Positions 13,378-55,853 of a stretch of DNA of 64,000 bases are shown here, piece by piece; position 1 is the first letter of the stretch; every line of letters begins with the position of its first letter. The position numbers and the translations under genes were made by a program. Under the pieces are notes generated by a model. That model saw nothing but the letters and a program-made list of their open reading frames with translations, ran no database searches and was not told the DNA's origin. The DNA is from Spirochaetota bacterium. GTDB lineage: Bacteria; Spirochaetota; UBA4802; UBA5550. The stretch lies in assembly GCA_017999915.1 (NCBI GenBank), contig JAGNKX010000001.1:248001-312000 (forward strand), in the 5' to 3' direction.

Positions 13378-15564
13378 ATGAACATTTCCAATACCCTTCT
13401 GACGACCCTCGAAATCACCCTCGATACCATTTTCAAGGCTTCCGGCACGGACCTACGCGTCCACGGCCTTGAAAACGTGCCGGACCAGCCGGTGCTCTAT
13501 GTCGTGAACCATTTCACGCGAATGGAAACCTTCCTGATGCCCTATATCATAAAAAAGAAGCTCCGCAAATACCCCATATCCCTGGCCGACAGATCCTTCT
13601 TCAGCGGCAAGATGGGCGAGTTCATGGACAGGGTCGGCGCCGTTTCAACGGCGGACCAGAACCGGAACGCCATCCTCATCGGCTCGCTCCTCACGGACAG
13701 GCACCCGGTCATCATATTTCCGGAAGGCCAGATGATCAAGGACAAGAAGATTGTCGAAAAGGGCAAATTCATGGTGTACAACACCGGCATCCGGCGGCCC
13801 CCCCATACCGGCGCGGCCCGCATCGCCCTCCTATCTCAGTTCATGCGGGAGAAGATCCGCCGCTTCCATGAAAAGAGCGACATGGGCAGGCTTGAACAGA
13901 TTGCCGCCGCCTACGGCTTCGACCTCCAGGACCTGGGCGGCATTCTCAAAAAAGAAACGTGCATCGTGCCGGTGAACCTGACCTATTACCCGGTCAGGGC
14001 CCGGGACAACGCCATAAACAAGCTGGTGGGAAGGTTCGTCAAGGACATGTCCGCCCGCTTCAAGGAGGAGCTCGAGGTCGAGGGCACCATGGTCATGGAA
14101 GGCGTTGACATAGACATCAATTTCGGGAAGCCGATCTATGCGAGGGAATACCTTCAATCGAACAGCCAGGTCATGGAGATGCTGGCCGATGATTCCCTCT
14201 ACCTCTCACCGGATGATTCGAAGAGGCTCTCCGCCCTTGCTCCCCTGGACCTCGCCGTGATGCTCCAGTACATGAACGCGATCTACGGCATGACCACGGT
14301 GAACCACGATCACCTGCTTTCATACATCCTTACCCATTACAAGAAAGGATGGATCAGCGAAGATGACCTTAAAAACCGCGCCTTCCTGGCCATGGACAGG
14401 ATCCGTGCGAGCGGCCTCACCAACTATCACACCGCGCTCCAGAAGAAGCAGTTCTATCTCCTCACGGACGATTTTCATGACAAGTACGCGAATTTCATCG
14501 AATCGGCCCTGTCCGACGGCCTCATCTCCCTGAAGGACGGCATCATCCGCAAAAACCGTGGCCGTTTCACCAAGCTCTATGACTTCCACACCATCAGGAA
14601 GGACAACATCATGGAGGTGCTCACGAACGAGATCGAGCCCCTCACCGCCCTTACCGCGGCCCTGGACCGCCTGTGCTTCATGCCGGCCTGGTGGATCAGG
14701 AGAACGATCCGGAACCGCTTCATCGAGCTGGACAGGAAGCTCTTCGATGAGGATTACATGAAATACGGCATCACGGGCGAAAGCAAGCCGAGGGAGATCG
14801 GGCAGCCCTTTTTCCTGAAGCGCCTCTTCAGCCGGAAGGGGATCATTCTGGTCCACGGCTACATGGCAGCGCCCGAGGAGATCAGGCCCCTGGCGGACTT
14901 CCTCCACGGGAAGGGATACAACGTCTACGGCGCCCGCCTGCGCGGCCACGGCACAGCGCCGGAAGACCTGGCGACGCGCAACTGGGAGAAGTGGTACGAC
15001 TCGGTGGGAAGGGCCTACATCATCATGAAAAACTCGATGAAGACCCTGGCCATCGGCGGCTTCTCCACCGGCGCGGGCATCGCCCTGCTGCAGGCGGCGA
15101 ATAAGCCGGGCAGGTTCCGCGGCGTCATTTCCATCAACGCGCCCCTGAAGCTGCAGAACATATCGTCGCGGCTCTCGTCGGCCGTTGTCATGTGGAACAA
15201 TTTCCTCACGAGGATCCACGTGAACAAGGGGAAAATGGATTTTGTCACCAACACCCCGGAAAATCCCCATATCAACTATTTCCGCAATCCCGTCGCCGGG
15301 GTCAGCGAACTGGGCAGGCTCATGAAGGTCGTGGAAGAGCGCCTTCCCCTCGTCAGGGACCCCGCCCTGATCATTCAGGGCTCCGACGACCCGGTGGTCA
15401 ACCCGGTAAGCGGCCTGGAGATTTTCGACCGCCTCGGCACTGAGCGGAAACAGCTCATCAGGATTTTCGCGAAGCGCCATGGCATCGTTCGCGGCAGGGA
15501 ATCTGAAGAGGTGAAGGCAAGGGTCCTGGAGTTCCTGGGCAAGGTCTTCAGCGGCAAGGCCTGA
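13378..15564 (+). CDS. PlsC-type acyltransferase fused to an alpha/beta hydrolase
   Basis: A 728-residue two-enzyme protein, with AGGAG just before ATG 13378. Residues about 30-290 form a lysophospholipid acyltransferase domain: NHFTRME at 44-50 is the HX4D/E catalytic motif (here with Glu) and FPEG near 114-117 is the second motif. Residues about 290-480 are a helical linker of unknown role. From about 485 a hydrolase domain follows: ILVHGYMA, RLRGHGTAPED, nucleophile elbow GFSTG with Ser563, acid Asp670 or 671 in GSDDPV, and His701 in KRHG. The hydrolase resembles monoacylglycerol lipases and carboxylesterases. One polypeptide could therefore both remove and add acyl chains on membrane lipids. 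It converges with the phosphatase gene only 7 bp away. Confidence 0.85.
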   Translation: MNISNTLLTTLEITLDTIFKASGTDLRVHGLENVPDQPVLYVVNHFTRMETFLMPYIIKKKLRKYPISLADRSFFSGKMGEFMDRVGAVSTADQNRNAILIGSLLTDRHPVIIFPEGQMIKDKKIVEKGKFMVYNTGIRRPPHTGAARIALLSQFMREKIRRFHEKSDMGRLEQIAAAYGFDLQDLGGILKKETCIVPVNLTYYPVRARDNAINKLVGRFVKDMSARFKEELEVEGTMVMEGVDIDINFGKPIYAREYLQSNSQVMEMLADDSLYLSPDDSKRLSALAPLDLAVMLQYMNAIYGMTTVNHDHLLSYILTHYKKGWISEDDLKNRAFLAMDRIRASGLTNYHTALQKKQFYLLTDDFHDKYANFIESALSDGLISLKDGIIRKNRGRFTKLYDFHTIRKDNIMEVLTNEIEPLTALTAALDRLCFMPAWWIRRTIRNRFIELDRKLFDEDYMKYGITGESKPREIGQPFFLKRLFSRKGIILVHGYMAAPEEIRPLADFLHGKGYNVYGARLRGHGTAPEDLATRNWEKWYDSVGRAYIIMKNSMKTLAIGGFSTGAGIALLQAANKPGRFRGVISINAPLKLQNISSRLSSAVVMWNNFLTRIHVNKGKMDFVTNTPENPHINYFRNPVAGVSELGRLMKVVEERLPLVRDPALIIQGSDDPVVNPVSGLEIFDRLGTERKQLIRIFAKRHGIVRGRESEEVKARVLEFLGKVFSGKA

Positions 15565-15571
15565 GGCGGGA

Positions 15572-17338
15572 CTACTGCACCTCGATGCCGATAAGGATGA
15601 TGTCATCCACGAGGGGCGCGCCCTTCCTGAAACGCGTGACCGTATCGATGATACAGTCCAGCTTTCCGCTAATGGTGCGCCGCTCCGGATCTCGAAAAAG
15701 GTTCAGAAAATTCTCGTTGTCTGAATCGAGCATCTCCCGCTCTTCGTTGATCGTGTCCGGAATGCCGTCGGTATAGAGAAAAATGCGGTCGCCCGGCCGC
15801 AGCTCCACCGAGGCTTCGCCGTAGGAGTTATTCTCGTTCCAGCCCAGCAGGTTACCCCTGGCCTTGATGTACTCGGCTGAATCGCTCTCGCGGCGATACA
15901 CTATCGGGAAGGGATGGCCGCCCCGGGCGAAGGTGAAGGTAACCCCGCCCTCATGGCGGCTGAAAAGACCGTAGAGGGCCGTCATATAGTAATCGGGCAT
16001 GTCCCGGTACACCTCGTAATTGATCATCTCGATGTACCGGGAGGGACTGGTGCCGCACTTTCGGCAGGCATGGTTGGATATGGTCCGCACGAGGGAGAGG
16101 AACAGCGCCGCGGGAACGCCGTGGCCGGTCACGTCGCCGATGAAGATCCCCAGGCCGCCCTCGGCAAGGATCGTAAAAGAAAAAAAATCGCCGCCCACCG
16201 CCTCGAGGGGCAGATACCGGTAATCGATGGCAAGGGGAGGATAGACCGGGACCTCCTTCGGCATGAGGGCCTTCTGGATGATGCGGGCGCTCTCCAGCTC
16301 TTTATCCAGTATTTCATTGCGGGCCCTGAGACTGTTTTCGCTGTTCCGCAGCTCGTTCTCGACCTGCTTCCGCTCGATGATCTCCCGGATCAGCTGCTTG
16401 TTGATGCCCTTGAGCTCCGCGGTGCGCTCCTGCACGATCATCTCGAGCTTTTCATGGTGGCGCCGCAGCTCCTCTTCCATCTGCTTGCGGTCGCTTATCT
16501 CCCGCCCGATCCCCTGCACCGCGTAGGGCTTCCGGTTGCGGTACATGAGAAACGACTTTGTTTCAACGAACACGCATCCGCCCTCCTTTGTGTAGAGGAT
16601 GAATTCCGTGGGGTTTTTCTGGGCGCCGGTTTCCTTGAGCTCCCTGACCAGCTCTTCCACCATCGGCATCTGGTCGTCGCCGAGGACGTCCCGCAGCGTC
16701 AGGGCGGGGATTTCCTCCTTCGAATAGCCGAGGGCGTTGATCCCGGCGCTGTTGACATCGATGAAACGGCCCTTGAAATCATGGATGAATACTATGTCCA
16801 GGGAGCGCTCAAAGAGAGAGCGATACCGCTCCTCGCTCTCCTCCAGGGCCATGCGCGCCATCTTCCTGCCCCGGATGTCCCTGGTGCTCCCCTGAATACC
16901 GATGGGCTCACCTTTATCGTCAAGGATCCACGACATCGTCGTCTCGATATCTATCACGGAGCCGTCCTTCCCGTACTGCTGCAGCTCCATGGTCCTGATG
17001 TTCGCGCGCTCCCCGGCCGGTTTCCGCAGCTCCCGGGCAAGCTCCCCGGAGACGAAGGACACACACTCCGGGAGGAGATACTTCTGCATAGGGATTTCCA
17101 TGGCTTCTTCGGGGGTGTAGCCGGTCATGGCCGTGACCGACGGGCTGACGTAGGTAAAACGGCCGTCAAGGGTCATGGCCCATATCACGTCGGAGGAATT
17201 CTCAGCCAGAAGCCGGTACAGCTCCTCGCTTTTATACAGGTCGGCAATGGTTTTCCTGAAGACCGCCTCCGTCTCCTCAAGCGTTGTTATGCGCCGTCGC
17301 AGCTCCTCGATTGTCGGGTCTTTTGGTTCTTCATCCAT
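15572..17338 (-). CDS. PAS-PAS sensor with SpoIIE/PP2C serine phosphatase output
   Basis: 588 residues, no signal peptide or membrane segment. A short coiled coil is followed by two PAS domains (about 40-155 and 165-285; each has the S.DVI/S.DIVFIHD start and a PAC end), then a coiled coil rich in Glu/Arg (about 285-355), then a SpoIIE-type phosphatase (about 365-588) with metal-binding VGGDFF, GDVTGHGV and YTDGI. Such proteins dephosphorylate STAS anti-sigma-antagonists in partner-switching signalling. The gene lies 48 bp after the PD40-OmpA gene on the same strand, so the two may be co-transcribed. A STAS protein that could be a substrate is encoded at 46084-46404, though the pairing is only a guess. 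Confidence 0.92.
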   Translation of the reverse strand: MDEEPKDPTIEELRRRITTLEETEAVFRKTIADLYKSEELYRLLAENSSDVIWAMTLDGRFTYVSPSVTAMTGYTPEEAMEIPMQKYLLPECVSFVSGELARELRKPAGERANIRTMELQQYGKDGSVIDIETTMSWILDDKGEPIGIQGSTRDIRGRKMARMALEESEERYRSLFERSLDIVFIHDFKGRFIDVNSAGINALGYSKEEIPALTLRDVLGDDQMPMVEELVRELKETGAQKNPTEFILYTKEGGCVFVETKSFLMYRNRKPYAVQGIGREISDRKQMEEELRRHHEKLEMIVQERTAELKGINKQLIREIIERKQVENELRNSENSLRARNEILDKELESARIIQKALMPKEVPVYPPLAIDYRYLPLEAVGGDFFSFTILAEGGLGIFIGDVTGHGVPAALFLSLVRTISNHACRKCGTSPSRYIEMINYEVYRDMPDYYMTALYGLFSRHEGGVTFTFARGGHPFPIVYRRESDSAEYIKARGNLLGWNENNSYGEASVELRPGDRIFLYTDGIPDTINEEREMLDSDNENFLNLFRDPERRTISGKLDCIIDTVTRFRKGAPLVDDIILIGIEVQ

Positions 17339-17386
17339 TGCGTGCCGGATCCTGGCTCAGGGTGAGCTCCAGTCCATCCATCGGGC

Positions 17387-18889
17387 CTATATGGCAAGGA
17401 CCTCGATCTCGACGCGGCGATTCTCCTTCCGCCCCTCGTCGGACTTGTTGGTCGCTATGGGCTTCTTTTTGCCGTATCCCTTGCTCACCAGCCTGTTCTT
17501 GCCGATCCCCTTGTTGATCAGGTAGTCCACGACGGTCTTGGCCCGCTGCATGGAAAGCTTGTTGTTAGCGGTCTCGGACCCGATATTATCGGTGTGGCCG
17601 CTGATCTCCACCTTCATGGTGGGATTTTCCTTCATCAGCTGGATAATCCGGTTCAGCTCGTACTTTGACTCCCTGAGGAGCTTGAAGCTCCTGAACTCAA
17701 AATACATGTTATTGAGGACGATATTCGCCCCCACCACGATCGGCTCAAGGAGTATGTCCTCGTTGATCTCCTTGTACTGCTGGAGCCCGGTGAGGTCTAT
17801 CTTCCGCGAATAGAACATGTAGCCCGGACTCTTGACGGAAAAATCGCATATCTTTCCCTTGTTGAGGATGACGATATACTTCCCGTCATCCTTATTGCTG
17901 TGAATGGTAATGGTGCGGTCGTCATGTTTTATGTCCGTGATGTTCAACTCCGCGAACAGTGTCTTGTCAGTGTCCCTTTTATCCCGCACCGTTCCCTTCA
18001 CGACAACGACCTTGGTCTGCTGGAGGTTTTCGGGAATGGGCACGGAAAAGATCCTCCGGGCGCTTTCCCGTCCGCCCTCGTCCCTGCCCAGGGACTTGGT
18101 GTAGTACATGATGTCACCCGACGCGGGAATGGCGATCAGGCTGTCTTCCCCCTTGGTGTTGATGAAGTTCCCCAGGTTGACGGGCTTGCTCCATCCGCCG
18201 CTTTCGGTCCTTTCGGTTTTGTAAAGATCGTACCCGCCGGATCCTCCGGGCCTCGTGGAGCTGAAAATGAGGGTCAGGTTGTCCGCCAGGATGACGGGGC
18301 CGAACTCGCAGTATTCCGTGTTTATCGGATTGGGCATTTTTCTCGGCTGGCCCCAGGTGTCATCTTTCTTTTCCGCGTAAAAGATGCCCAGCTTGTCCTT
18401 GCAGCCGGTCTTCTCCGGGCATTCGCGCACGAAGAACAGGGTGTTGCCGTCAGGCGAAAGGGAAGCAAAGCCTTCGTAGCCGGGCGAATTGACGGGAGCG
18501 CCCATGTTCACCGGGGTGGACCAGCGGTCGCCCTTGCGCTGCGATATCCAGAGGTCGCAGTTCCCCAGCCCCCCTTTCCGATCCGACGTGAAAAGAAGCG
18601 AGTTCTGGTCGTAGGTGATGAAGCATCCGCCGTCGGCATATCCCGAGTTGATGCTGTCCAGGGCCACCGGCCTGCTCCACTTGTCAAATATCTTCTGCTT
18701 CGCGTAAATCTTGTATTTCCTCGGCTCATCGATATCGGCCTGGTATATCATGGTGCGCCCGTCGGCCGATATGGTCGGGCTGTATTCTGAATATTCGTGT
18801 CTGGAAAACGCGCTGGTGACCGCCGAGACCGCCACCAGGAGAAAAACGGCAATCAGCGCCACTCTTGACAATGTACTATATTTTCCCAT
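17387..18889 (-). CDS. PD40 beta-propeller / OmpA-family outer-membrane-associated protein
   Basis: 500 residues. A signal peptide (hydrophobic VALIAVFLLVAVSAVTSAF near residues 9-27) is followed by PD40-type repeats (about 35-290; SPTISADGRTM, LLFTSDRKGG, SLSPDGNTLFF, LIFSSTRPGG), a carboxypeptidase-regulatory-like segment (about 300-385), and an OmpA C-terminal domain (about 390-500; FEFRSFKLL, ISGHTDNIGSE, NRRVEIEV) that binds peptidoglycan. It probably sits in the periplasm, tethering the outer membrane or a complex to the wall, with the propeller as a binding platform. A good promoter lies 78 bp upstream. Confidence 0.92.
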   Translation of the reverse strand: MGKYSTLSRVALIAVFLLVAVSAVTSAFSRHEYSEYSPTISADGRTMIYQADIDEPRKYKIYAKQKIFDKWSRPVALDSINSGYADGGCFITYDQNSLLFTSDRKGGLGNCDLWISQRKGDRWSTPVNMGAPVNSPGYEGFASLSPDGNTLFFVRECPEKTGCKDKLGIFYAEKKDDTWGQPRKMPNPINTEYCEFGPVILADNLTLIFSSTRPGGSGGYDLYKTERTESGGWSKPVNLGNFINTKGEDSLIAIPASGDIMYYTKSLGRDEGGRESARRIFSVPIPENLQQTKVVVVKGTVRDKRDTDKTLFAELNITDIKHDDRTITIHSNKDDGKYIVILNKGKICDFSVKSPGYMFYSRKIDLTGLQQYKEINEDILLEPIVVGANIVLNNMYFEFRSFKLLRESKYELNRIIQLMKENPTMKVEISGHTDNIGSETANNKLSMQRAKTVVDYLINKGIGKNRLVSKGYGKKKPIATNKSDEGRKENRRVEIEVLAI

Positions 18890-18966
18890 AGCTCAGCCCC
18901 TTATTATTCTTCTGTGACATGCTGCGATATTGATATACACCATTCAAGATACAACAGACGATAATA

Positions 18967-18995
18967 TTTTTAATAGACGGTAAATTCTCTGTCAA
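18967..18995 (-). promoter_or_regulatory. Sigma-70-type promoter of the PD40-OmpA gene
   Basis: On the minus strand TTGACA (18990-18995) is perfect, followed by a 17-bp spacer and TAAAAA (18967-18972). The predicted start leaves roughly 70 bases of leader before ATG 18889. Confidence 0.55.
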
Positions 18996-19065
18996 GTAAC
19001 AAATAGATGCGGATCCCGGATGGAACGAAGCTTCGGTTCATGACGATGTCTGCGGGCCGACATGA

Positions 19066-20253
19066 TCATTCATTAAGGAACAGGATCAGCAAAACGAAAG
19101 CGACGATTGAAAAGGCGGCTGAACAGTAAAAGACCCCGTCCATGCCCCATCCCTGGAAGGCAATGCCGGTGAGGACCGGTCCCACCGTCTGCCCCAGGCG
19201 GAGCACCATGGAGTTGACGGACATGAAGGCGCCGCGGAATTCCATCGGGGCGCTCCCGGAAATATGGGTCTGTATGCTGGGAATATTGAGACCATTGGCA
19301 AGGCCGTATAACAACACGGGGATGGTCATCATCCAGATGTTGTCCGCGAGAAGCACCAGCATGATGGCGGCGGCATAGGCGATAAAGGAAACCGTGATGA
19401 TGGTCTTGGGCCTGAAGCGCCGTGAGATCCAGCCGAGGTTAAAGGCGCCGATGATCGTGGTGACCGAGGTCGCCGCCAGCATCAGGCCGATGGTCGACGA
19501 CGAAGCGTTAAATCTTTGATGCATGAGGAAGGGAAAGTAAGCGAGGAGCGCCCCGTACAGGAGGATAAAGGTCGCCAGCGTCGCCAGGTACGCAGGCATC
19601 ACTTCCCTGTCCGCGGCGGAGCGCAGGGCCCCGCCCAGGTACTGGCGCAGAGGCGGCATCGCGGCCGGCTCCGGATTCCTGAGCCCATACAAAACGATAA
19701 TGCCCATCGGCAGTGCCAGAGCCGACAGTAAAAAGGGATAGTTCCATCCCAGCAGGGCCAGGGCCCCGCCCAGGGCCGGATAGATCATGGTGCCGACGCC
19801 GAGCACCGACGCGTTGTACCCGAGCGCCTCGGTCCGGTCCTTGCCGGCAAACATGTCGGTAATGACGGTCTGGCCCAGCCCCCCAAGGGCCGACGCGCCC
19901 ACGCCGTTGATAAAGCGCAGGACCAGGAGAACGGGATACTCGGTGGCAAAGGCGCATGCACCGCCGGCTACGCCGAAGAGCAGCAGGGAGGGAACGATCA
20001 CTTTTTTTCTTCCGAAGCGGTCGGCAAGAATACCCATGACCGGCGCCAGGATGATGCCGGGGAAGGTGAAGACCGTGATGAGCATGACCACCTCCCCCTC
20101 CGTGAGGCCCAGGTCCTTCGCCATGGAGGGGAATGCCGGCGCTATGGAGGTAACGCCGATGGCCGAGATCAGCGTTATCCCGAAAACGATCTGGAGATCG
20201 CGGCCGAGCAGTATGCGCCAGTCCCGCTTAATCCTCACCGTGACCGCTTGCAC
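19066..20253 (-). CDS. Major facilitator superfamily transporter (drug/metabolite exporter-like)
   Basis: 395 residues with about 12 hydrophobic segments, the standard MFS size. The motif between helices 2 and 3, GILADRFGRKK, is the classic motif A, and the family resembles drug:proton antiporters of the DHA1 type. The frame opens at GTG 20253; a second GTG at 20238 is equally possible. Either way it overlaps the end of the methyltransferase/ATP-grasp gene (stop at 20228), so translation is probably coupled. That context suggests export of the product of the upstream enzyme. Substrate is unknown. Confidence 0.9.
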   Translation of the reverse strand: MQAVTVRIKRDWRILLGRDLQIVFGITLISAIGVTSIAPAFPSMAKDLGLTEGEVVMLITVFTFPGIILAPVMGILADRFGRKKVIVPSLLLFGVAGGACAFATEYPVLLVLRFINGVGASALGGLGQTVITDMFAGKDRTEALGYNASVLGVGTMIYPALGGALALLGWNYPFLLSALALPMGIIVLYGLRNPEPAAMPPLRQYLGGALRSAADREVMPAYLATLATFILLYGALLAYFPFLMHQRFNASSSTIGLMLAATSVTTIIGAFNLGWISRRFRPKTIITVSFIAYAAAIMLVLLADNIWMMTIPVLLYGLANGLNIPSIQTHISGSAPMEFRGAFMSVNSMVLRLGQTVGPVLTGIAFQGWGMDGVFYCSAAFSIVAFVLLILFLNE

Positions 20254-22180
20254 CGTTCATGCCGACCAGCCCGATCCGATGCTCGGCGGCCTGCAGGATC
20301 TCACCCATCATCTCCCCATAGGACAGTCCCTCTATGGCGGCCATCTTCGCCATGTGGCCGTCCCAGCACCATCCGGGATTGGGATTCACCTCGAGGAGCT
20401 TCGGCTTTCCTTTCGCGTCCAGGCGCCAGTCGAAGCGGCAGTAGTCGCGGCATTCCAGCCGTTCGAACAGCTTCAGGCAGCATTCGATGATCAGCTTGCG
20501 GATGTCGTCGGAGATGGCCGCCGGTATGGGGCGCACGGTCCGGTAGGGCGATTCCCGGACCCATTTCGCCTCGTATCCGCATATCTTCGGAAGGTCCGCC
20601 GGCAGGAACGAATAATCCTCCTCGATGACCGGCAGCACGCGGTACGACTCCGGAGGATTGCCGATGATGCCGACGCTCAGGTCCTTGCCGGGAAGAAACT
20701 CCTCTACCAGGATCGGCTTCTCGTAGCCCAGGCGGTCCCTGATCTCCGAAATGGCGTTCACCAGCTCCTCGATGCCGTTGCAGACACACCGCTGGGTGAT
20801 GCCGAGGCTGCAGTCGCCGATGTTGGGCTTGCAGATGACCGGAAAGGCGAAGGGGAGATCGAAGGTATTGTCCTCCGCCTTGATGAAGAAGGCCTTGGCC
20901 ACCGGTATCCCCATTTCCTTGGCAATGCCGCGCACGAGGGACTTGTCGTAGCAGTAGGCCAGGCACTGCGGCCCCGATCCCGTGTAGTTGACGTCCATCA
21001 TCTCCAGGAGCGAGGGCACGTGGAGCTCCCGGCGGGCGTCGTTGTTGTATCCGTCGTCGCACAGGTTGAAGGCGAAATCGGTGTTCTTCTTGAGCCGCGC
21101 CAGGTCGTTGATCAGCGAATCGTGGCTGCTGACGTAGGTGAAATTATAGTCCCGGAGGTCTTTCAGGGCGTCCTTCATCTGGTCGATATCGTACCGCTCG
21201 GTGTCCTCGCATAACGGGAAGCGCGCGGGATCCTTTTTCATCGGGTCGCCCAGGACGACCGTCACGTTCTTGATGTCCGTCTTACGCTGGCGGACCGGCG
21301 ACCAGTCCTTCTTGACCAGGGCGGTCATGACGATATGCTTTTCCGCCATTCCCTGTTCCTGCCCGCGCGGGAAGTCGGCGCAGTCATGGAGCGTGATATC
21401 GCTGAAGCCGGCGGCGTTCAGAAGCTCCTGCATGCTGTCGCTGTTGTAGAGCCGCTCCGCGTAGAACTGATCGGCGATGACGCCCTTTTCCACGTGAGTG
21501 ACTAACTCGCGGGATATGAGACGCTGCTTGTCCACGGAAATCGAGCGCTCCCGGCAGACAAAATGATTCTTGTCGATCCATTCCCACGACCGGGGCTGAA
21601 AATGCCTGCGCAGGTGATCGCCGTCGTTCACGTCGACCAGGAGCCGGCCCCACGGCTTCAGCACCCTGAAGACCTCCCGGAGAACGCGCAGGTCGTCATT
21701 GACCGTTTCAAAGTAGCCGAAGCTGTTGCCGAGGATGAATATGGCGTCGAAGGTATCGGGCCGGTAGGGGAGCATGCGGGCCTCGCCCTCGCGGAATTTC
21801 ACGTAGAGGCACTCCTTTTTCGCCTGCACCTTGGCCCTCTGTATGAGGTACCGCGACCGGTCCAGGCCCTCCACGAACTTGAATCCGCGGCGGGCCAACT
21901 CGAGGGAATGACGTCCCTGGCCGCAGGAAAGGTCGAGGATTCGATCATCGTGAAGCACGTGGGCGATGCCGGTGAAGAAGTCCACCTCCCGGGCCGTTGT
22001 CTGGTGGTCTTCCCCCAGGTCCGGATCGGTTTTCAGATAGAGAGAATTGAAGATTGTATTCCACCAGTCGGGATTGACATATTCTTCCAGGTTTGCCACG
22101 GGGCCTAAAGATTTCCTGGCGTGCACCCCCTTCGGCCTGGCCGATACCGGATTATTATTGATTGCTGCTTTCATCGTCAC
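20228..22180 (-). CDS. SAM methyltransferase / D-Ala-D-Ala ligase-like ATP-grasp fusion
   Basis: 650 residues with two enzyme domains. Residues about 30-295 are a class I methyltransferase: motif I ILDLSCGQGRHSLELA, then FDAIFILGNSFGYF and LKPWGRLLVDVND. Residues about 305-640 resemble D-alanine-D-alanine ligase: VPSLLEMMDVNYTGSGP, KSLVRGIAKEMGIP, ICKPNIGDCSLG (ATP-binding lysine), LVEEFLPGKDLSVGI, and LLEVNPNPG (metal-binding Glu and Asn). ATP-grasp ligases of this kind join a carboxylate to an amine, so the fusion may ligate and methylate an amino-acid-derived product. It overlaps an MFS exporter gene. The upstream region is long and gene-poor, so it is probably the first gene of its transcript. 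The substrate cannot be named. Confidence 0.88.
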   Translation of the reverse strand: MTMKAAINNNPVSARPKGVHARKSLGPVANLEEYVNPDWWNTIFNSLYLKTDPDLGEDHQTTAREVDFFTGIAHVLHDDRILDLSCGQGRHSLELARRGFKFVEGLDRSRYLIQRAKVQAKKECLYVKFREGEARMLPYRPDTFDAIFILGNSFGYFETVNDDLRVLREVFRVLKPWGRLLVDVNDGDHLRRHFQPRSWEWIDKNHFVCRERSISVDKQRLISRELVTHVEKGVIADQFYAERLYNSDSMQELLNAAGFSDITLHDCADFPRGQEQGMAEKHIVMTALVKKDWSPVRQRKTDIKNVTVVLGDPMKKDPARFPLCEDTERYDIDQMKDALKDLRDYNFTYVSSHDSLINDLARLKKNTDFAFNLCDDGYNNDARRELHVPSLLEMMDVNYTGSGPQCLAYCYDKSLVRGIAKEMGIPVAKAFFIKAEDNTFDLPFAFPVICKPNIGDCSLGITQRCVCNGIEELVNAISEIRDRLGYEKPILVEEFLPGKDLSVGIIGNPPESYRVLPVIEEDYSFLPADLPKICGYEAKWVRESPYRTVRPIPAAISDDIRKLIIECCLKLFERLECRDYCRFDWRLDAKGKPKLLEVNPNPGWCWDGHMAKMAAIEGLSYGEMMGEILQAAEHRIGLVGMNGASGHGED

Positions 22181-23216
22181 CCCTTACCTCCCCGTTATAA
22201 ACATTATGTCTCATGCTGTCATATATCTTCACTGCTGCACAGATCGATATCGCCCGAAGTCAGCGCTGCCTGCCACCTGCCTCATACATGCGGTACCATT
22301 CCCGGCGGTCCGGAAAAGACCATTATAGCGGTCCACTGGCCGGTTGTTTTTTTCTCCCGCCTATGATAAGGCGTACTATGACAGTGAGTATGAATATCAG
22401 GCATGATGAAATAACTCGGCAGGCAGGATGAGCCGTCTTTGGCGCCGCAGAAAGAAGAAAAAGGTTGCCGGGTTATGCCGTTGTCTTTGGTGACCGCATA
22501 TCGTGGTGGAACCGGGGGGCTCCCCTTCACCGGTTCCCGCCTCTGTCCTTCCTTCGTCCCGGTCATGAAGCCACCCGGAACAGGCGGGAATGATGTTTGC
22601 TTGATTCCAATTCTGTTTACCTGTGACAATCCTTGCAAAATTCAAACAGGGATAGAGAACCAATACAATTTATTATACTTTGAAAACAAGATAATACATT
22701 ACAAAAAAAATTCAATAAAAAAAAGAAAAAACCGCACCATTCATCATGGCTACAATGGGCGACCGGTACGCCTGTCCGAAAATGATAAAAGGGTTGATGC
22801 CGGGACGATTATCGGATCACGGGTAGGGGCGCATGGTATTGAAAATCTGTTTTATGAGCAACCGCTCATTAATCCCAATTGATTAATAAAATTTATATTG
22901 ATTTTTAAAATCCACCATATTAGCGTGGCAGGCGTGATTAAACATATACAGAGATATACAAAATCGGAGGCTTACCTATGAATAATAACATACATCTGCA
23001 TCATTAACCGACAATCCCCATACTGGATAAGCTCATGATGCCCCGCCATCGCCATAGTTGCGCCACCATGATTGCGGGAAATCACCGCGTGCAATTTCAT
23101 TGTCTCCTGGACATCGACATTGCACTGGGTATACCGCTCTATTGCCGCACACAGTCTATGGTGCGGGAATACGATGCGCAGCACCAAAAATATTCACAAA
23201 CAACAGGGAGAAATCA
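22181..23216. other. Gene-poor kilobase between divergent transcription units
   Basis: About 1 kb without a convincing gene. The part from about 22640 to 22960 is AT-rich with long A tracts (22710-22730), unlike the flanking genes, and includes a small inverted repeat TTAATC/GATTAA at 22868-22885. Open frames present here have no family resemblance or good start signals, except one nine-codon ORF listed separately. It must hold promoters for the leftward ligase gene and the rightward LolA-like gene, but I could not assign clear -35/-10 pairs. Confidence 0.5.
22978..23007 (+). other. Tiny ORF with strong ribosome binding site (possible leader peptide)
   Basis: The peptide is MNNNIHLHH. A strong GGAGG (22966-22970) sits seven bases before the ATG, better than most real genes here. 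It ends 210 bp before the LolA-like gene. Three of nine residues are histidine, recalling attenuation leaders, but the following gene is not a histidine gene and no clear antiterminator pair is visible. It may be a regulatory leader, a remnant or chance. Confidence 0.3.
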
Positions 23217-24062
23217 ATGAAGCGTTTCAGAATTCTTGCAACAATAGCGTTTATATTCTGTTGTGCGGTTGCCTTTTCAGAATCGCCGGCGGAAATGGGA
23301 ACCCGGCTCATGAAGTCGAACGACGACCGCCCCGTCTTCGAAAAAGTCAAGGCCAAGGGAACCCTTATCATTTACGACAGCAGCGGAAAGATCAAGTTCA
23401 CCAAATCCCTCATCATGGGGACCTATACCGTCGGCATGGGATCTGCGGCGACCTTCGCCGAGAAATATCTCGCCTACATGATGTCCCCCGCCGACGACCA
23501 GGGCAACTCCTATCTCATGTACCATTACAAAATACGGGACGACGTCAAATGGGTGTACCTGAAGGGGATCCGCAAGGCCAAGAAAGTCACCGGGGCGGAC
23601 AAAAAACTGAGCTTTTTCGGCAGCGACTTCACCAACGCCGAGGCGAGCAAGCCGAACTTCCTCGAATGGAACTACAAGTACATTGGAGACGAAAAGGTTG
23701 AATTCAAGGGAAAGGTCTTTGACTGCTACATGGTCGAATCGACTCCCAAAACCAAGACCATCATGAGCGACCAGGGATGCGGCCGCAGGGTATCGTTCCT
23801 GGAGAAAAAGTCGCTCCTCACGCTGCGGCTCGATCTTTATGATGAAAACATGATAAAAGTCAAGGAACTGAGACTTCTTTCCTTTACGACAAAAAATAAT
23901 GTCAGGGGCCAAAAAGTTAATTACGAAACCGGACTGGAGATGAAAAATGTCAAGACCGGCTCAAAAAGCCACCTGCTCTTTTCAGATTTAAAAACCGAGG
24001 AAGAATCTAACCTGCGGACGGACGTTTTTACCGAGCAATACCTGACGCAGAAATGGTGGTAG
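23217..24062 (+). CDS. LolA-like outer membrane lipoprotein-sorting protein
   Basis: 281 residues. ATG 23217 is chosen over an upstream in-frame start because it has AGGGAG before it and begins a signal peptide (MKRFRILATIAFIFCCAVAFS). The mature part resembles the outer-membrane lipoprotein-sorting family (LolA_like): KAKGTLIIYDSSGK, DDVKWVYLKGIRKAKKV, and SFFGSDFTNAE match its conserved strands. Such proteins are periplasmic carriers for lipidic cargo, often found with RND or FtsX-type exporters and beta-barrels. It forms a pair with the beta-barrel gene 36 bp downstream. Confidence 0.82.
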   Translation: MKRFRILATIAFIFCCAVAFSESPAEMGTRLMKSNDDRPVFEKVKAKGTLIIYDSSGKIKFTKSLIMGTYTVGMGSAATFAEKYLAYMMSPADDQGNSYLMYHYKIRDDVKWVYLKGIRKAKKVTGADKKLSFFGSDFTNAEASKPNFLEWNYKYIGDEKVEFKGKVFDCYMVESTPKTKTIMSDQGCGRRVSFLEKKSLLTLRLDLYDENMIKVKELRLLSFTTKNNVRGQKVNYETGLEMKNVKTGSKSHLLFSDLKTEEESNLRTDVFTEQYLTQKWW

Positions 24063-24098
24063 GATCGATCCGTACCCGATTAAAAAATGGAGGAATAC

Positions 24099-25607
24099 AT
24101 GAGATCTTTAATAACGGCGTTTTTCGTCGCTCTCGTTCTCTTTTCAGCAAGCTTATCCCATGGCCAGATAGAGGACCTCTCAGAGGGAAAGGATAAGCAT
24201 GGTGACACAAAGACACAGGGAGAGAGCGGGAAGGATGTTACCTTTGCACTTCATGGATACGCGCAGGCCAACTTTGTCGTATCGAGAAATGACATGGGGG
24301 TCGGCGGCAACCGGTGGATCAACTCAAAATACCAGTTTCCCCGGGTGGGCGCCACGCTTCAGCTGGAGCTGGAAGGAAATGCCTATGATATCGCCCATTT
24401 CTTTTCAGCGGTGCAGATTGAATACAACGCGGCAGGGGAAAAGACGAACTTCCCGAAGTTCTATTACCCGAACACTTTTTTACAGTACACCTATTATCAA
24501 TCCATTGCCGATTTCAAGCGGGATGAGATAAGCAAGGCCCCTACCGTCAACGTCCGTGAAACCTATGTGGACCTGTACGGAAAACACGTAACCTTCAGGG
24601 CGGGACAGCAGATCATCTCCTGGGGCGAGATCGAAGGGATCGAGGCGCCGTCGGACGTGGTGATACCGTGGGATTTCACCACCATGAGCAACTATTTTGA
24701 ATTCTCCCGCATCGGCGTTGTCGCCGCGAATCTCACCTTCCATTTCGCCAATCAGCAGCTTCAGTTCATCTGGATGCCGATATTCCAGCCTGGCAAGCTT
24801 CCCGAAGAGTCACTGTACCGGAGGGGCGTCACCAGCATCAAGCGCCCCGCCTTTGAGGTCCGCAACGGGGAATACGCAGTCAGGCTGTCAGGGGGGATCG
24901 GAAACCAGTTCCGCTACGGCCTCGGGTTCCTCTACGGCTTTGACGACACGCCGGACACAAAGATCACGATGGTGCCAAGCGTTTTTGCGACGCCCTTCGG
25001 CTCCCTCATCGTGCCCCAGGCGGTCTTCACCGAGATGTACTACAACCGGGTCATGGTGCCCACCTTTGACATGAACATCGGCTTCGGCGAAGTGCTGTCG
25101 TGGAAGGTTTCGGCCAACGCCAATTTCACCAAGGACTTCTACGGTAAAATGGACCTGGTAAAAAATTCCACGGTCACCTATTTGACCGGTCCGGAATCGT
25201 CGAACCTCTTCTGGAAAATCTACGCGGGTATCTACCTGGGCCAGCAGTGGACCATCAACTACACGAAGCCGGCTCCTGATACGGATATGATCAACATGGT
25301 CTCGAAAATGCAATTGGGGGCAATGCCCAACGGCCAGATCATCGAAGGCTACGGCCAGCAATATCCCTATAAGTGGATGCTCACGGCCAACCTTCAAAGG
25401 AATTTTCTTGAAAGTGATGCCCTTGAAATACAGGCCCGGATTGCCCTGTACGCGGATCCGAAGCTGAGAAAGTGGGATTATGTCATCTATCCCTATATGA
25501 TGTACAAGTTCACCAACGGGGTCAGCACCGCCCTCGGCTTTGTATTCGCCAAACGGATGGGAGAAAACCGGAACATGATCATTTCAGAAACGCGTTACTC
25601 CTTCTGA
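24099..25607 (+). CDS. Outer-membrane beta-barrel protein (DUF1302-like)
   Basis: 502 residues. ATG 24099 is preferred to ATG 24087 because GGAGG (24089-24093) lies five bases before it; it begins a signal peptide ending near SLSHG. The rest has many alternating amphipathic strands with aromatic girdles and the segment VNVRETYVDLYGKHVTFRAGQQIISWGE, which is characteristic of the DUF1302-type barrels. It ends in a terminal phenylalanine (TRYSF), a BAM recognition signal. With the LolA-like neighbour it likely takes part in moving hydrophobic cargo across or into the outer membrane. A terminator follows. Confidence 0.8.
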   Translation: MRSLITAFFVALVLFSASLSHGQIEDLSEGKDKHGDTKTQGESGKDVTFALHGYAQANFVVSRNDMGVGGNRWINSKYQFPRVGATLQLELEGNAYDIAHFFSAVQIEYNAAGEKTNFPKFYYPNTFLQYTYYQSIADFKRDEISKAPTVNVRETYVDLYGKHVTFRAGQQIISWGEIEGIEAPSDVVIPWDFTTMSNYFEFSRIGVVAANLTFHFANQQLQFIWMPIFQPGKLPEESLYRRGVTSIKRPAFEVRNGEYAVRLSGGIGNQFRYGLGFLYGFDDTPDTKITMVPSVFATPFGSLIVPQAVFTEMYYNRVMVPTFDMNIGFGEVLSWKVSANANFTKDFYGKMDLVKNSTVTYLTGPESSNLFWKIYAGIYLGQQWTINYTKPAPDTDMINMVSKMQLGAMPNGQIIEGYGQQYPYKWMLTANLQRNFLESDALEIQARIALYADPKLRKWDYVIYPYMMYKFTNGVSTALGFVFAKRMGENRNMIISETRYSF

Positions 25608-25640
25608 TAATTCACCAGTAACATGCATGACAACACTGTC

Positions 25641-25669
25641 AAAGACAGCCCCACGGGCTGTCTTTTTTT
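25641..25669 (+). terminator. Rho-independent terminator after the beta-barrel gene
   Basis: An 11-bp perfect stem (25641-25651 with 25655-25665), a three-base loop, and a run of seven T. It ends the LolA-like/beta-barrel transcript. Confidence 0.9.
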
Positions 25670-25902
25670 CGGCATATTCCACCCCCCCCCGAGGCTCCTG
25701 CATGTTCGGACATGAAAATCCCGCAATACAATGCGGCGCGGTAATCCGCGGGGCAAAGTGTCCCATGATGCTCTTCGATCTCTCATTGCCGAAGCAGGAC
25801 CATCGGGCTTTCACGCGGCGCCTTAAAATGCATTATCAAAAAAATATAGTTGTAAAAAATAAGCTGTGCAGAGTTTGATGCCTGAAGGCCCGGGCATTTA
25901 CC

Positions 25903-26550
25903 ATGGAACAGCTGATAAACGACATAATCACGTATCTTCTCCCCAAAAATGACTTTTTTTTGTACTTGTTTCTCTTCATATGCGCCATCATTGAAAATTT
26001 ATTACCACCCATTCCGGGCGATACCATTACGGTATTGGGCGCCTTCCTGGTCGGCACCGGGAGGCTTTCATTTCTTCTGGTTTATGCCTCCACCACGATA
26101 GGCAGCGTGGCGGGATTCATGATTCTCGTGTTTCTTGGCCGCTTCCTGGAACGCGAATTTTTCATGAAAAAAAATTATCGCTTTTTCCCCGCCTCAAGCA
26201 TCATTGCGGCTGAACGCTGGTTCGCCCGCTACGGCTATTTTGTGGTCCTGGCGAACAGGTTTCTCCCCGGTGTGAGGTCGGTCATATCGCTGGTATCAGG
26301 CATAACCAGGCTGAACATGTTGAAAGTATTGCTCCTTTCCGTGATAAGCGCCGCCGTATGGAACCTGATCTGGATCAAGATCGGCTTTATGCTGGGGAAC
26401 AACTGGCAGACCGTCAGGGAAAAAGCGGGAAGCCTCATCGAGGGATACAATATCGTTGCAGGAGCCATCATAGCTCTGATCGTAATCTGTTTAATAATAT
26501 ATAAACTCATTAAAAAACGAGGGGATAAGAAAGATACCTCTTCTGAATAA
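25903..26550 (+). CDS. DedA family membrane protein
   Basis: 215 residues. The family motif E-N-LLPPIPGDTI near residues 30-40 and the later conserved FARYGYFVVLANRFLPGVRS are both clear, with about five hydrophobic segments and a lysine-rich C-terminus. DedA proteins flip or scramble lipids such as phosphatidylethanolamine or undecaprenyl phosphate at the inner membrane. It stands alone, about 295 bp after the previous gene; that gap holds a nine-C run at 25682-25690 and no gene. Confidence 0.9.
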   Translation: MEQLINDIITYLLPKNDFFLYLFLFICAIIENLLPPIPGDTITVLGAFLVGTGRLSFLLVYASTTIGSVAGFMILVFLGRFLEREFFMKKNYRFFPASSIIAAERWFARYGYFVVLANRFLPGVRSVISLVSGITRLNMLKVLLLSVISAAVWNLIWIKIGFMLGNNWQTVREKAGSLIEGYNIVAGAIIALIVICLIIYKLIKKRGDKKDTSSE

Positions 26551-26687
26551 AATAAACATCTTTCGGCACATCCGCTCATTTCTCGTTGACCGACTCCGGG
26601 TAAATCGATTCCCTGTGCAGGAATAAACCCCCATTTCTAAAAAATACATCCAAAAAATACTTGTTTTTTTATTATACCCTTTGGTAA

Positions 26688-26716
26688 TTGGTATTAAGTT
26701 GAACTTTGCATATAGT
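26688..26716 (+). promoter_or_regulatory. Candidate promoter of the IMP cyclohydrolase gene
   Basis: TTGGTA (26688-26693) and TATAGT (26711-26716) are 17 bp apart in an AT-rich stretch, leaving a leader of about 38 bases before ATG 26761. Confidence 0.5.
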
Positions 26717-26760
26717 ATGGACATGCCCATATTAAATTCTGTTAAGCTCGGCCAATCCCT

Positions 26761-27399
26761 ATGGCAAAAATTAAGAAGGCTCTTCTCAGCGTGTCCGATA
26801 AATCCGGCATTGTTGAATTTGCCAGGGAGCTCGAAACATACGATGTCCAGTTTATATCGACGGGAGGGACCGCGCGGATACTTCGTCAGAATGGGCTGGA
26901 GATTATGGATGTGGCGGATTATACCGGCTATCCCGAGATGATGGACGGCAGAGTAAAGACCCTGCATCCGAAGATACACGGGGGCCTGTTTGGCGTCAGG
27001 TCCAATCCCGAACACCTTCATGATATGAATGAATATAACATTGAAGGGATCGACATGATCGTGGTCAACGTGAAGCCGGTGGATTCAGCCATGATCAGCC
27101 AGAACAGCACGATTGACGACGCGATGAACAGGATTGATATCGGAGGCATTGCGCTTCTCAGGTCTGCGGCCAAGAATTTTAACAGCGTCACGGCCGTCAT
27201 TGACTCTGGAGATTACGAGTCGGTAATAGGTGAGATGCGGAACAATAACGGCGCCGTGTCTCCTGAATTGAATCTGCAGCTCGCTATCAAGGTGTTTGAA
27301 ACGACATCCAGATATGACAGCCTGATTTCCGAGTACTTGCGGCAGAAGGCATTACGCGGTTTTTCAGAAAAAAAATATATTGAGATTCCCCGGTATTAA
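26761..27399 (+). CDS. Stand-alone IMP cyclohydrolase (PurH N-terminal domain only)
   Basis: 212 residues covering only the MGS-like cyclohydrolase domain of PurH, which closes the ring of FAICAR to give IMP. Conserved blocks are ALLSVSDKSGIVEFAREL, STGGTARILR, MMDGRVKTLHPKIHGGL and DIGGIALLRSAAKNF. The AICAR transformylase half, normally another 300 residues, is missing, and the following 80 bp show no remnant of it. The frame ends cleanly, so this looks like a true split rather than a frameshift. A separate formyl-transfer enzyme is then expected elsewhere. No purine gene is adjacent. Confidence 0.88.
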   Translation: MAKIKKALLSVSDKSGIVEFARELETYDVQFISTGGTARILRQNGLEIMDVADYTGYPEMMDGRVKTLHPKIHGGLFGVRSNPEHLHDMNEYNIEGIDMIVVNVKPVDSAMISQNSTIDDAMNRIDIGGIALLRSAAKNFNSVTAVIDSGDYESVIGEMRNNNGAVSPELNLQLAIKVFETTSRYDSLISEYLRQKALRGFSEKKYIEIPRY

Positions 27400-27478
27400 T
27401 CAGTCGTGGTATTATAGGCAAACCGGCGAAGACCAATAACAAATATAACAATAATAACAATTTAATCGGAGGTAGTAC

Positions 27479-29464
27479 ATGGCTGAAGTTACTCTTAAAG
27501 AGATTTATCCAGTGCCCGAAAGTTTCAAGAAAAAGGCATACATCAAAAGCCGCGCTGACTACGAAAAAATGTGGAAAGAGTCCCTTGCTGATTCAGACGC
27601 CTTCTGGGCAAAGATAGCCGAGGAGTATGTGACCTGGTTTAAGAAATGGGACAAAGTCAACGGCAGCAATTATGCCAAGGACATGAAAGATTTTAAAATC
27701 GAGTGGTACAAGGGCGGCAAGCTGAACGTGTCCTACAACTGCCTTGACAGGCACCTGGAAAAAAGAGGGAACCAGTTGGCCCTCATCTGGGAAGGAAACG
27801 ATCCCAGCGAAACGAGGAAGTTCACCTACAAACAGCTCCATGAAGAAGTCTGCAAATTCGCCAACGTTCTCAAGAAAAACGGCGTTAAGAAAGGCGACCG
27901 TGTCACTTTCTATCTGCCGATGATCCCCGAGCTGATGATCGGTATCCTGGCCTCTTCCCGCATCGGCGCCGTTCACTGCGTCGTATTCGGCGGCTTCTCA
28001 GCTGAAGCGCTCCGCGACCGCGTCAACGACAGCGGCTCTGAAGTGCTCGTCTCCTGCGACGGCACCTTCCGCGGCGCCAAGGCCGTTCCCCAGAAAGACA
28101 ACGCCGACAAGGCCCTGACGGAATGCCCGGGCGTCAAGAACCACATCGTCGTGAAACGGGTCGGCGACCAGATCAAGTGCACATGGAACAGCAAGACCGA
28201 CAAGTGGTGGCATGAAGAAATGGCTTCTGTCGACGCGAAATGCGAACCGGAACAGATTGAAGCGACAGACCCCCTGTTCATCCTCTACACCTCCGGATCG
28301 ACCGGAAAGCCGAAAGGCGCCATGCACTCAACCGGCGGATACCTTGTATTCACCGCCTTCACCCACAAGATGATCTTCGACTACCATGACGGCGACATCT
28401 ACTGGTGTACCGCTGACATCGGCTGGGTAACCGGACACTCCTACATCTGCTACGGTCCTCTCTGCAACGGCGCAACGACCGTCATGTTCGAAGGCGTTCC
28501 CAACTATCCGGATCCGGGCCGTTTCTGGGCAGTCGTCGAGAAGCACAAAGTCAACATATTCTACACCGCTCCGACCGCCATCCGCGCCATCGCGAAAGAA
28601 GGCGACAGCTGGGTAGACAAGCACAACATCAAGACCCTCCAGCTCCTCGGATCAGTGGGCGAGCCCCTGAACCCGGAAGCATGGAACTGGTACTATCAGA
28701 AGATCGGCCGCGGCGAGTGCCCGATCGTCGACACCTGGTGGCAAACCGAGACCGGCGGCATCCTCATCACCCCGCTTCCCGGCGCCATTGACATCAAACC
28801 CGCCATGGCTACGGTTCCCTTCTTCGGCGTCGAGCCCAGCATCGTCGACGATGAAGGCAAGGTGCTCGAGGGCGTCTGCACCGGCAACCTTTGCATCAAT
28901 CGTTCATGGCCTGGCCAGATGATAGGCGTGTACGGAGATCCCAAGCGGATGTTCGACACCTATTTCGCGCAGTTCCCGGGCAAATACTTCACCGGTGACG
29001 GCTGCAAACGCGACAAAGACGGCTACTATCAGATCACCGGCCGCGTTGACGACGTTATCAACGTATCCGGACACCGGATGGGCACCGCCGAGGTCGAATC
29101 GGCCCTCGTATCCAACAAGAACGTGGCCGAGTCCGCCGTTGTCGGTTATCCGCACCCGATCAAGGGCCAGTCGATCTACGCGTTCGTAACGCTGAAATCC
29201 GGCATCGCCAAGACCGATGACCTCAAGAAAGAGCTTATCGCGACCGTCCGCAAGGAGATCGGCCCCATCGCAACACCGGATATCATCCAGTGGGCGGACG
29301 TTCTTCCCAAGACCCGTTCCGGCAAGATCATGCGCCGGATCCTCAAGAAGATCGCGGCCAGCGACTTCGACAAGAGCGGCATGGGCGACACCTCGACCCT
29401 CGCCGACCCGACCGTCGTCGATACGCTGATCGCGGGCGCCAAGGAAGCTCAGGGCAAGAAGTAA
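27479..29464 (+). CDS. acs: Acetyl-CoA synthetase (AMP-forming)
   Basis: 661 residues, normal length, with GGAGG eight bases before ATG 27479. It activates acetate to acetyl-CoA through acetyl-AMP. Motifs: ATP-binding [23 protein letters not shown], the hinge region [20 protein letters not shown], and the C-terminal [10 protein letters not shown] whose lysine is the usual acetylation site. The codon choice is rather uniform and C-ending, as for a highly expressed gene. It is followed by a strong terminator and appears monocistronic. Confidence 0.97.
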
Positions 29465-54179: not shown

Positions 54180-54323
54180 AAATCCTTGACAAAAACAGCC
54201 CGCTGTTGCAGAAGGTCATCAAGAATGACTGGCGTTTTTAGATGGAAATGACCATCAGGGAATTCTTGCAGTACCGTCATGTCGCACGCCTGGGCATGCA
54301 AACAACTGCCACAGGAGTGTCCC

Positions 54324-55853
54324 ATGGAACAATCAATTATCGCATCTTACCTGGAACAAAACGGGCCTGAAGGCATCAACAGCTCCTTTCTCGCCTACCT
54401 GGCAAATCTCGAAACCATAGCCCGGGTCGCCCCCGAGGTCGCCCGGAGCGTCGTGCAGGAGCTGGCGGACCAGCGGTCGAACCTGAAGCTCATCGCGAGC
54501 GAAAACTATTCCTCCATCGCGTCGCAGCTGGCCATGGGGAATCTCCTCACGGACAAGTACGCCGAGGGATTCGCCTATCACCGATTCTACGCCGGCTGCG
54601 ACAACGTCGACCAGATCGAGAACCTGGCGGTCGAAGAGGCGAAGAAGCTCTTCGGCTGCGACCACGCCTATGTCCAGCCCCACAGCGGCGCCGACGCCAA
54701 CCTGGTCGCCTACTGGGCGATCCTGTCGACCCGCGTTGAAGCGCCGCGTCTGAACGAGCTGAAGGCGAAAAACCCCAACGAGCTGAGCGACGGCGACTGG
54801 GCGTCCCTCCGCCGCGACATGGGAAACCGGAGGCTCCTCGGCCTGGACTACTATTCCGGCGGCCACCTGACCCACGGCTACCGCATGAACGTATCCTCCC
54901 GCATGTTCGACGCCCATTCCTACACGGTGAGCCGCGAAACCGGCCTCATCGACTATGACATGATCGAATCAAAAGCTGAGGAGATTAAGCCCCTGATCCT
55001 CCTGACCGGGTACAGCGCCTACCCCCGGGCCATCAACTTCAAGAGAATGCGCGAGATCGCTGACCGCGTCGGGGCTGTGCTGATGGTCGACATGGCCCAT
55101 TTCGCGGGCCTGGTGGCCGGCGGCGTCTTCACCGGCGAGATGAACCCTGTGGCCTACGCCGACGTGGTGACCACCACGACCCACAAGACCCTGCGGGGGC
55201 CCCGGGGCGGGATGGTCCTGTGCACCAATGAGTTCGCCGACGCCGTGAACAAGGGATGCCCCCTGGTCATCGGCGGGCCCCTTCCCCACGTGATGGCCTC
55301 CAAGGCCGTGGCCTTCCGGGAAGCGAACAAGCCTGAATTCAAGGCCTATGCCGCCGCCATAGTGAAAAACGCCGGCGCCCTGGCCCGGTTCTGCATGGAG
55401 GCCGGCATGGACGTCGCCACGGGCGGCACCGACAATCACCTCCTCCTGGTGGACGTCAGGAACTTCGGCCTCACGGGGCGGCAGGCGGAAAGCGCTCTGC
55501 GCGAGTGCGGCATCACCCTGAACCGGAACTCCCTTCCCTTCGACGTGAACGGTCCCTGGTACACCAGCGGCATCCGCGTCGGCACCCCGGCGGTGACGAC
55601 CCTCGGCATGGACGTCTCCCAGATGAAGGAGATCGCCCAGATCATGCACAGGGTCCTTTCCGGCACCACGGCCCAGGTAGACCCCCAGACCCACAAAAAG
55701 AGCCTGGCCAAATACGATATCGACGCCAACGCCAGGGGCGATGCCCTGGATCGGGTCAAGGACCTGCTGTCGCGCTACCCGGTATACCCGGAGCTCGACC
55801 TTGATTTTCTCATGGATTCTTTCGTGAACAACGACATTTCCGTGGCTGTATGA
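54324..55853 (+). CDS. glyA: Serine hydroxymethyltransferase, long form
   Basis: 509 residues from ATG 54324 (AGGAGTG upstream); an in-frame ATG at 54279 lacks a Shine-Dalgarno. It is longer than the usual 415-430 residues, with insertions after the PHSGADAN region (about 130-200) and an N-terminal extension, as in Chlamydia and Treponema. The PLP lysine is Lys288 in TTTTHKTLRGPRGG; ASENYSS and KYAEG are conserved. It converts serine and tetrahydrofolate to glycine and methylene-THF, the MetF substrate. Confidence 0.95.
   Translation: MEQSIIASYLEQNGPEGINSSFLAYLANLETIARVAPEVARSVVQELADQRSNLKLIASENYSSIASQLAMGNLLTDKYAEGFAYHRFYAGCDNVDQIENLAVEEAKKLFGCDHAYVQPHSGADANLVAYWAILSTRVEAPRLNELKAKNPNELSDGDWASLRRDMGNRRLLGLDYYSGGHLTHGYRMNVSSRMFDAHSYTVSRETGLIDYDMIESKAEEIKPLILLTGYSAYPRAINFKRMREIADRVGAVLMVDMAHFAGLVAGGVFTGEMNPVAYADVVTTTTHKTLRGPRGGMVLCTNEFADAVNKGCPLVIGGPLPHVMASKAVAFREANKPEFKAYAAAIVKNAGALARFCMEAGMDVATGGTDNHLLLVDVRNFGLTGRQAESALRECGITLNRNSLPFDVNGPWYTSGIRVGTPAVTTLGMDVSQMKEIAQIMHRVLSGTTAQVDPQTHKKSLAKYDIDANARGDALDRVKDLLSRYPVYPELDLDFLMDSFVNNDISVAV

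Follow-up and report, generated by a model that had tools for sequence, protein, structure and literature searches.

The window analysed here is a single stretch of 64,000 nucleotides (G000:C1:248001-312000) in a genome to which, among named relatives, Spirochaetes bacterium RBG_13_51_14 and RBG_16_49_21, both MAGs, come closest. On its minus strand (-) lies a gene whose product joins a methyltransferase to an ATP-grasp ligase, and this gene overlaps that of an MFS transporter. What does such a joined enzyme make, and is its product exported by the transporter next door? The first-pass annotation had leaned towards yes on the second question, reading the pair as a compact candidate for the production and export of an unknown metabolite.

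One protein with two domains

The fusion gene (20228..22180 (-), 650 aa) starts with a GTG at 22180, and a candidate ribosome-binding site, GGGGAGGT (22186..22193 (-)), is present 5 nt before it. Pfam and NCBIfam matches divide the product into a class I SAM methyltransferase domain with a cap (residues ~38-265; 21386..22069 (-), from the PDB 9RI2 match) and a complete D-Ala-D-Ala-ligase-type ATP-grasp domain (residues ~301-636; 20273..21280 (-), from PF07478 and a structural match to Ddl). The Pfam profiles Methyltransf_25/11 cover residues 78-181 (E ~1e-17), and Dala_Dala_lig_C covers residues 421-630 (E 2e-23).

It is clear that the fusion is genuine and no annotation artefact, since the full length is kept in one frame in 64 aligned homologues and since the domains are confidently predicted by AlphaFold (mean pLDDT 82). 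These homologues are collinear over the whole length and 58-83% identical to the protein of the window, and the mean pairwise identities of the two halves, 69% and 70%, indicate about equal constraint. For some homologues in-frame stops were reported; these are probably profile overhang past the start or end, because the ORFs concerned are of full length. How the two domains sit relative to each other is uncertain in the model, given a pTM of only 0.57. When the model was used in a structure search, residues 301-641 were found to match Ddl structures with Z values up to 30.0 over 300 residues, as obtained with P. aeruginosa DdlA (rmsd 3.1). An amino-acid-ligase-like enzyme fused to a methyltransferase, as initially described, is thus confirmed by the Pfam domains, the homologues and the model.

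The DHA1-type MFS transporter gene (ORF 19066..20253 (-); PF07690 (MFS_1), E 1e-63), downstream of the fusion gene, does overlap it as had been noted, by 26 nt for the ORFs as called. Translation of the MFS gene probably begins further in, at the GTG at 20238, which would leave an overlap of ~11 nt between this GTG and the fusion stop (TAA), at 20228..20238 (-). In the sister species G003, the MFS gene starts at the GTG matching 20238 and shows the same overlap, so that the overlap is likely 11 nt in both species; at L009/L125 it is 11 nt.

The neighbours of the pair in the window are LolA-like, VTT-domain, PurH-like, OmpA/PD40, PAS-SpoIIE and acyltransferase-hydrolase genes. No murein gene adjoins it, in agreement with the earlier remark that peptidoglycan genes are absent nearby. 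Several other features of the window can be described here. The gene at 13378-15564 (+), kept in sister species, encodes a 728-aa fusion of a PlsC/GPAT-type acyltransferase with an alpha/beta hydrolase (Hydrolase_4). The PurH-like gene at 26761-27399 (+) encodes only 212 aa, namely the MGS/IMP cyclohydrolase domain and the first 66 AICARFT positions, and a short form of 211 aa is also present in G004. A ZMP/ZTP riboswitch (RF01750, 58.6 bits; 54215-54302 (+)) lies directly upstream of a serine hydroxymethyltransferase gene (54279-55853), the true start of which is probably further in, because the ORF as called overlaps the riboswitch.

The ligase half retains the catalytic residues of Ddl, with other specificity residues

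In an alignment with two ordinary Ddls, the residues serving ATP, Mg and phosphoryl transfer are intact in the fusions: K451, K539, R582, D584, E597 and N599, all invariant in 131 homologues, correspond to K144, K215, R255, D257, E270 and N272 of DdlB, in the E. coli numbering placed on the present alignment. In the omega loop, Trp540 (20561..20563 (-)) stands where DdlB has Tyr216; this residue is a Trp in 131/131 homologues, and the host's own Ddl has Tyr there. The position of DdlB Ser150 is a Ser in 125/131 homologues and a Cys in the window. Both Ser150 and Tyr216 are conserved among ligases making D-Ala-D-Ala only (PMC7691350). The GGxSxExxVS motif with Glu15 is absent from the fusions, which exhibit GDPxK at the matching first strand-loop; the N-terminal motif of the host Ddl is GGRSGEHDVS. 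Finally, a PGWCWDGHL loop replaces the PGFTSISMY-type loop of Ddl (TSHS-type), so that the signature G-W-C-W-D-G-H (603-609; 20354..20374 (-)) is found in place of a PGxTSxS-type sequence. Within this signature, C605, D607 and G608 are invariant among the 131 homologues, with W604 in 130, W606 in 126 and H609 in 128 of them.

The ligase half therefore shares with Ddl and the VanA-type D-Ala-D-Lac ligases the same three-part ATP-grasp fold and the ATP, Mg and phosphoryl residues, but is only ~20-25% identical to Ddl, from which it differs by the Trp at Tyr216, the missing Glu15 motif, and WCWDGH in place of the carboxylate-binding loop, as well as by its joined methyltransferase and its presence in archaea. 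ATP-dependent ligation by the C-terminal half is strongly supported by the fold and the invariant residues. As judged from sequence, the chemistry has probably been kept and the specificity is probably different, because the ATP and phosphoryl residues stay while Tyr216, Glu15 and the loop are replaced; substrates other than D-Ala are supported by these residue changes and by the distribution described below. One may speculate that Trp604, Trp606 and Asp607 form a pocket for a methylated ammonium group.

In one Lokiarchaeota-phylum genome, a stand-alone Ddl-like ATP-grasp gene (L161:6508-7503 (+), 331 aa) is located 368 bp upstream of the fusion. Its product resembles the ligase half (NP/NA-N-P motif, DNGYENDF) and is possibly a partner ligase.

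The methyltransferase half remotely resembles small-molecule N-methyltransferases

A SAM-binding motif together with the Methyltransf_25/11 match assigns the N-terminal half, by sequence, to the class I SAM methyltransferases; its SAM-site residues G87, G89 and D107 are invariant in the 131 homologues, and SAM-dependent methylation by this half is thus a supported prediction. The closest solved relative of the METHYLTRANSFERASE half is, as the best sequence match in the PDB, NmbA of Chlorobaculum tepidum (PDB 9RI2); the match spans residues 38-260, with the cap region included, at E 8e-22. NmbA is a small-molecule N-methyltransferase that N-methylates the cysteine of bacillithiol (PMC12719100); it is a stand-alone protein of remote identity, whereas the methyltransferase of the fusion is joined to a ligase. 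The glycine/sarcosine N-methyltransferase model NF051855 aligns with residues 57-264 and so spans most of the domain, but its score of 50 bits is far under the curated cutoff of 350. Small-molecule N-methylation is our best guess for the acceptor, and nitrogen over oxygen, sulfur or carbon is likewise a guess, because the similarities to NmbA and to glycine/sarcosine N-methyltransferase are both remote. No informative neighbours were found beside the stand-alone methyltransferase relatives (L221-L225).

A fusion scattered over bacteria and archaea

A tblastn search of species-representative genomes returned 371 relatives of some kind, not all of them shown to be fusions; the best 80 have the fusion in full or nearly so, at 59-77% identity. 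The bacterial hosts among these 80 include Planctomycetota, Atribacterota, Omnitrophota, Aminicenantes, Zixibacteria, Thermodesulfobacterium, Thermotogota, Spirochaetota and others, and the archaeal ones include Lokiarchaeota, Jordarchaeia, Methanophagales, Altiarchaeota and Methanoculleus. The 64 aligned fusions come from some 20 phyla. By targeted searches, the fusion was detected in 14/392 genomes of the window's phylum, 42/227 of the Lokiarchaeota phylum, 31/50 of the Atribacteria phylum (Atribacterota), 7/198 of the class to which a Phycisphaerales locus belongs, and 6/199 of the phylum of the Aminicenantes locus, with one copy per genome in nearly all hosts. The full-length fusion was not found in the viral_contigs, phage and plasmid sets searched.

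In the tree of the fusion, bacteria and archaea are intermixed, and many deep forks are poorly supported. Four Lokiarchaeota sequences form one clade with a support of 100, and well-supported branches break up the rows of the Methanobacteriota, the Omnitrophota and the Thermodesulfobacteriota. Transfer of the fusion between phyla is likely, and misbinned MAG contigs explain some of the cross-phylum cases. On one contig labelled Candidatus Nitrosotalea (L039), both the fusion and its neighbours are almost the same as on a Methanophagales contig (L038); L039 has, together with L038, short end branches in the tree (0.008 and 0.019) and is probably such a misbinned contig.

The neighbouring transporter and other gene context

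Within the genus of the window the two genes also occur apart. At the same locus, G004 shows the order LolA-like, MFS, OmpA/PD40 and PAS-SpoIIE with no fusion between, and in G001 (L017) the fusion is directly followed by the OmpA/PD40 gene with no MFS. Each gene therefore stands alone at this locus in a sister species. Compared with window positions 13378-29464, L230 and L017 display all three arrangements in one genus: fusion with MFS, MFS only (G004) and fusion only (G001). Over 57 relatives, an MFS orthologue is present in 17 and the fusion in 8, with both in 2; that is, MFS occurs in 2/8 genomes with the fusion versus 15/49 without it (Fisher p = 1). Some of these relatives are ~90% complete and single absences may be gaps, while the G004 and L017 cases are contiguous sequence.

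The neighbours of 134 distinct loci (<92% identity) were clustered and scanned with Pfam against a control of distant genes, and no dominant or conserved neighbour family of the fusion was found among them. At most of these loci no MFS gene lies beside the fusion. In the bacteria GBS-1 and 42_11, a DHA2-like MFS gene, of another subfamily, abuts or overlaps the fusion, and in L053 and L088 an MFS gene occurs within two genes of it, all on the same strand. MFS_1 accounts for 5 of ~190 near genes, or 6/192 when one manually added gene is counted; for the 122-gene distant control, the families shown with at least two members do not include it.

Families recurring near the fusion in more than one lineage are the CorA and CitMHS/NhaD-like transporters and AspA/AstE-like hydrolases. 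CorA Mg transporter genes adjoin it in two spirochaetes (L214, L215), Aminicenantes and Atribacteria; CitMHS/NhaD-like genes are next to it in Lokiarchaeota, one spirochaete and one Altiarchaeon; and MgtE is near it in GBS-1/42_11, MscS in Methanophagales and a TrkA_C protein gene in Aminicenantes. This weak recurrence of MFS and ion transporters could mean that the product is sometimes exported. At many Lokiarchaeota-phylum loci, the next gene encodes a proteasome-activating ATPase, with a gap of 1-42 nt. Over L138-L160, the gene after the fusion is often either a proteasome-activating AAA ATPase or a CitMHS/NhaD-like transporter, at gaps of ~1-190 nt. At L052:5780-10823, the fusion is flanked by a 7TM_transglut gene, an alpha-L-glutamate-ligase-like gene and another gene of a RimK-family ligase.

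Weighing the possible functions

That the overlapping MFS protein exports the metabolite of the fusion, the two forming a dedicated unit, would fit the overlap kept in two species, the DHA2-like gene overlapping or abutting the fusion in the unrelated GBS-1 and 42_11, the same-strand neighbours in L053 and L088, and the count of MFS_1 among near genes. Yet the swaps between G004 and G001 and the lack of co-occurrence, the outcome of looking for the pair in other genomes, lead us to reject exporter coupling as a general property. Most loci are moreover free of a nearby MFS, and the enrichment by nearness (p ~0.03) is biased, the seeds having been chosen because they lie near the fusion, so that MFS recurrence is suggestive at most. 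The production-and-export unit originally proposed is therefore not borne out and appears unlikely; the MFS gene is best explained as a lineage-specific neighbour in one bacterial genus. The product might instead stay in the cell as an osmolyte or as a solute against ion stress, in the form of a methylated zwitterionic dipeptide. Such a role would be consistent with the CorA, MgtE, CitMHS/NhaD-like, MscS and TrkA_C genes near the fusion in several lineages, and with relatives of the methyltransferase half that include the betaine-making glycine/sarcosine methyltransferase. It is nevertheless improbable in our estimate: the transporters recur weakly (p 0.02-0.08, the seeds again having been picked post hoc for nearness), none of the gene arrangements is shared throughout, and a search for Rfam riboswitches close to the gene came up empty both in the window region and at the 10 loci covered.

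Some other ATP-grasp ligases modify proteins, and the proteasome-activating ATPase following the fusion at many Lokiarchaeota-phylum loci, like the RimK-type ligases flanking it at one locus, would suit a protein or peptide as the substrate in place of a free metabolite. Against this, the fold of the ligase half is that of an entire Ddl, a group known for free amino acids, no precursor-like gene recurs nearby, and no target common to so broad a range of hosts is obvious, which makes this reading quite improbable. The idea of an ordinary cell-wall ligase making D-Ala-D-Ala or D-Ala-D-X draws on the matches to PF07478 and to the Ddl NCBIfam models and on the fold (Z 30), but every Ddl model scores far under its curated cutoff (118 bits versus 243, and 110 versus 246), the host genome has a separate canonical Ddl (366 aa, at G000:C14), the fusion occurs in archaea, and key specificity residues have been replaced. 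A canonical cell-wall Ddl identity was rejected on these grounds and is scarcely credible. No homologue was seen in a murein operon, and the earlier view that the enzyme is not one of peptidoglycan synthesis is supported by the host's own Ddl, the archaeal occurrence and the absent D-Ala specificity residues. Of the proposal as a whole, a non-peptidoglycan enzyme that plausibly makes a small molecule has stood, while the coupled export has not.

Our preferred reading, to which we give a probability of about 0.62, is that the fusion works on its own as a bifunctional enzyme, ligating common small metabolites and methylating them (probably on nitrogen), mainly for use inside the cell. In this scheme, the C-terminal half would, like Ddl, activate a carboxylate with ATP as an acyl phosphate and couple it to an amine, with substrates other than D-alanine, and the N-terminal half would transfer a methyl group from SAM to either of the substrates or to the product, most likely to a nitrogen. 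The product would be a methylated dipeptide-like metabolite derived from common precursors. Because the fusion is conserved, we infer that both steps act on one molecule or in one pathway, although fusing as such suggests coupled halves and not their sequential action on one molecule. N-methylation, the order of steps and the substrate class are likewise presumed, and mainly intracellular use is proposed because no exporter is conserved. A system that may work alike is the anserine route of animals, in which carnosine synthase, an ATP-grasp dipeptide ligase, and carnosine N-methyltransferase, a small-molecule N-methyltransferase, are separate enzymes; the ATP-grasp subfamily is a different one, and the fusion is one protein.

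Implications

No description of the fusion was found in the open-licence literature searched, including Asgard, compatible-solute and Spirochaeta contexts; each domain is of a known kind, and it is the fused family with its signature that seems undescribed there. The fusion is spread over some 20 phyla at ~60% identity, apparently requires no partner gene, and bears an invariant active-site signature unlike that of Ddl. We put forward tentatively, at somewhat less than even odds, that this single mobile gene encodes every step in making a methylated dipeptide-like metabolite not yet described, be it an osmolyte or a redox or metal-binding compound. If so, Asgard and methanogen-lineage archaea would share this metabolite with Atribacterota, with thermophilic spirochaetes and with numerous further phyla, most of them anaerobic, and one gene, the fusion, would suffice to make a metabolite apparently overlooked so far.
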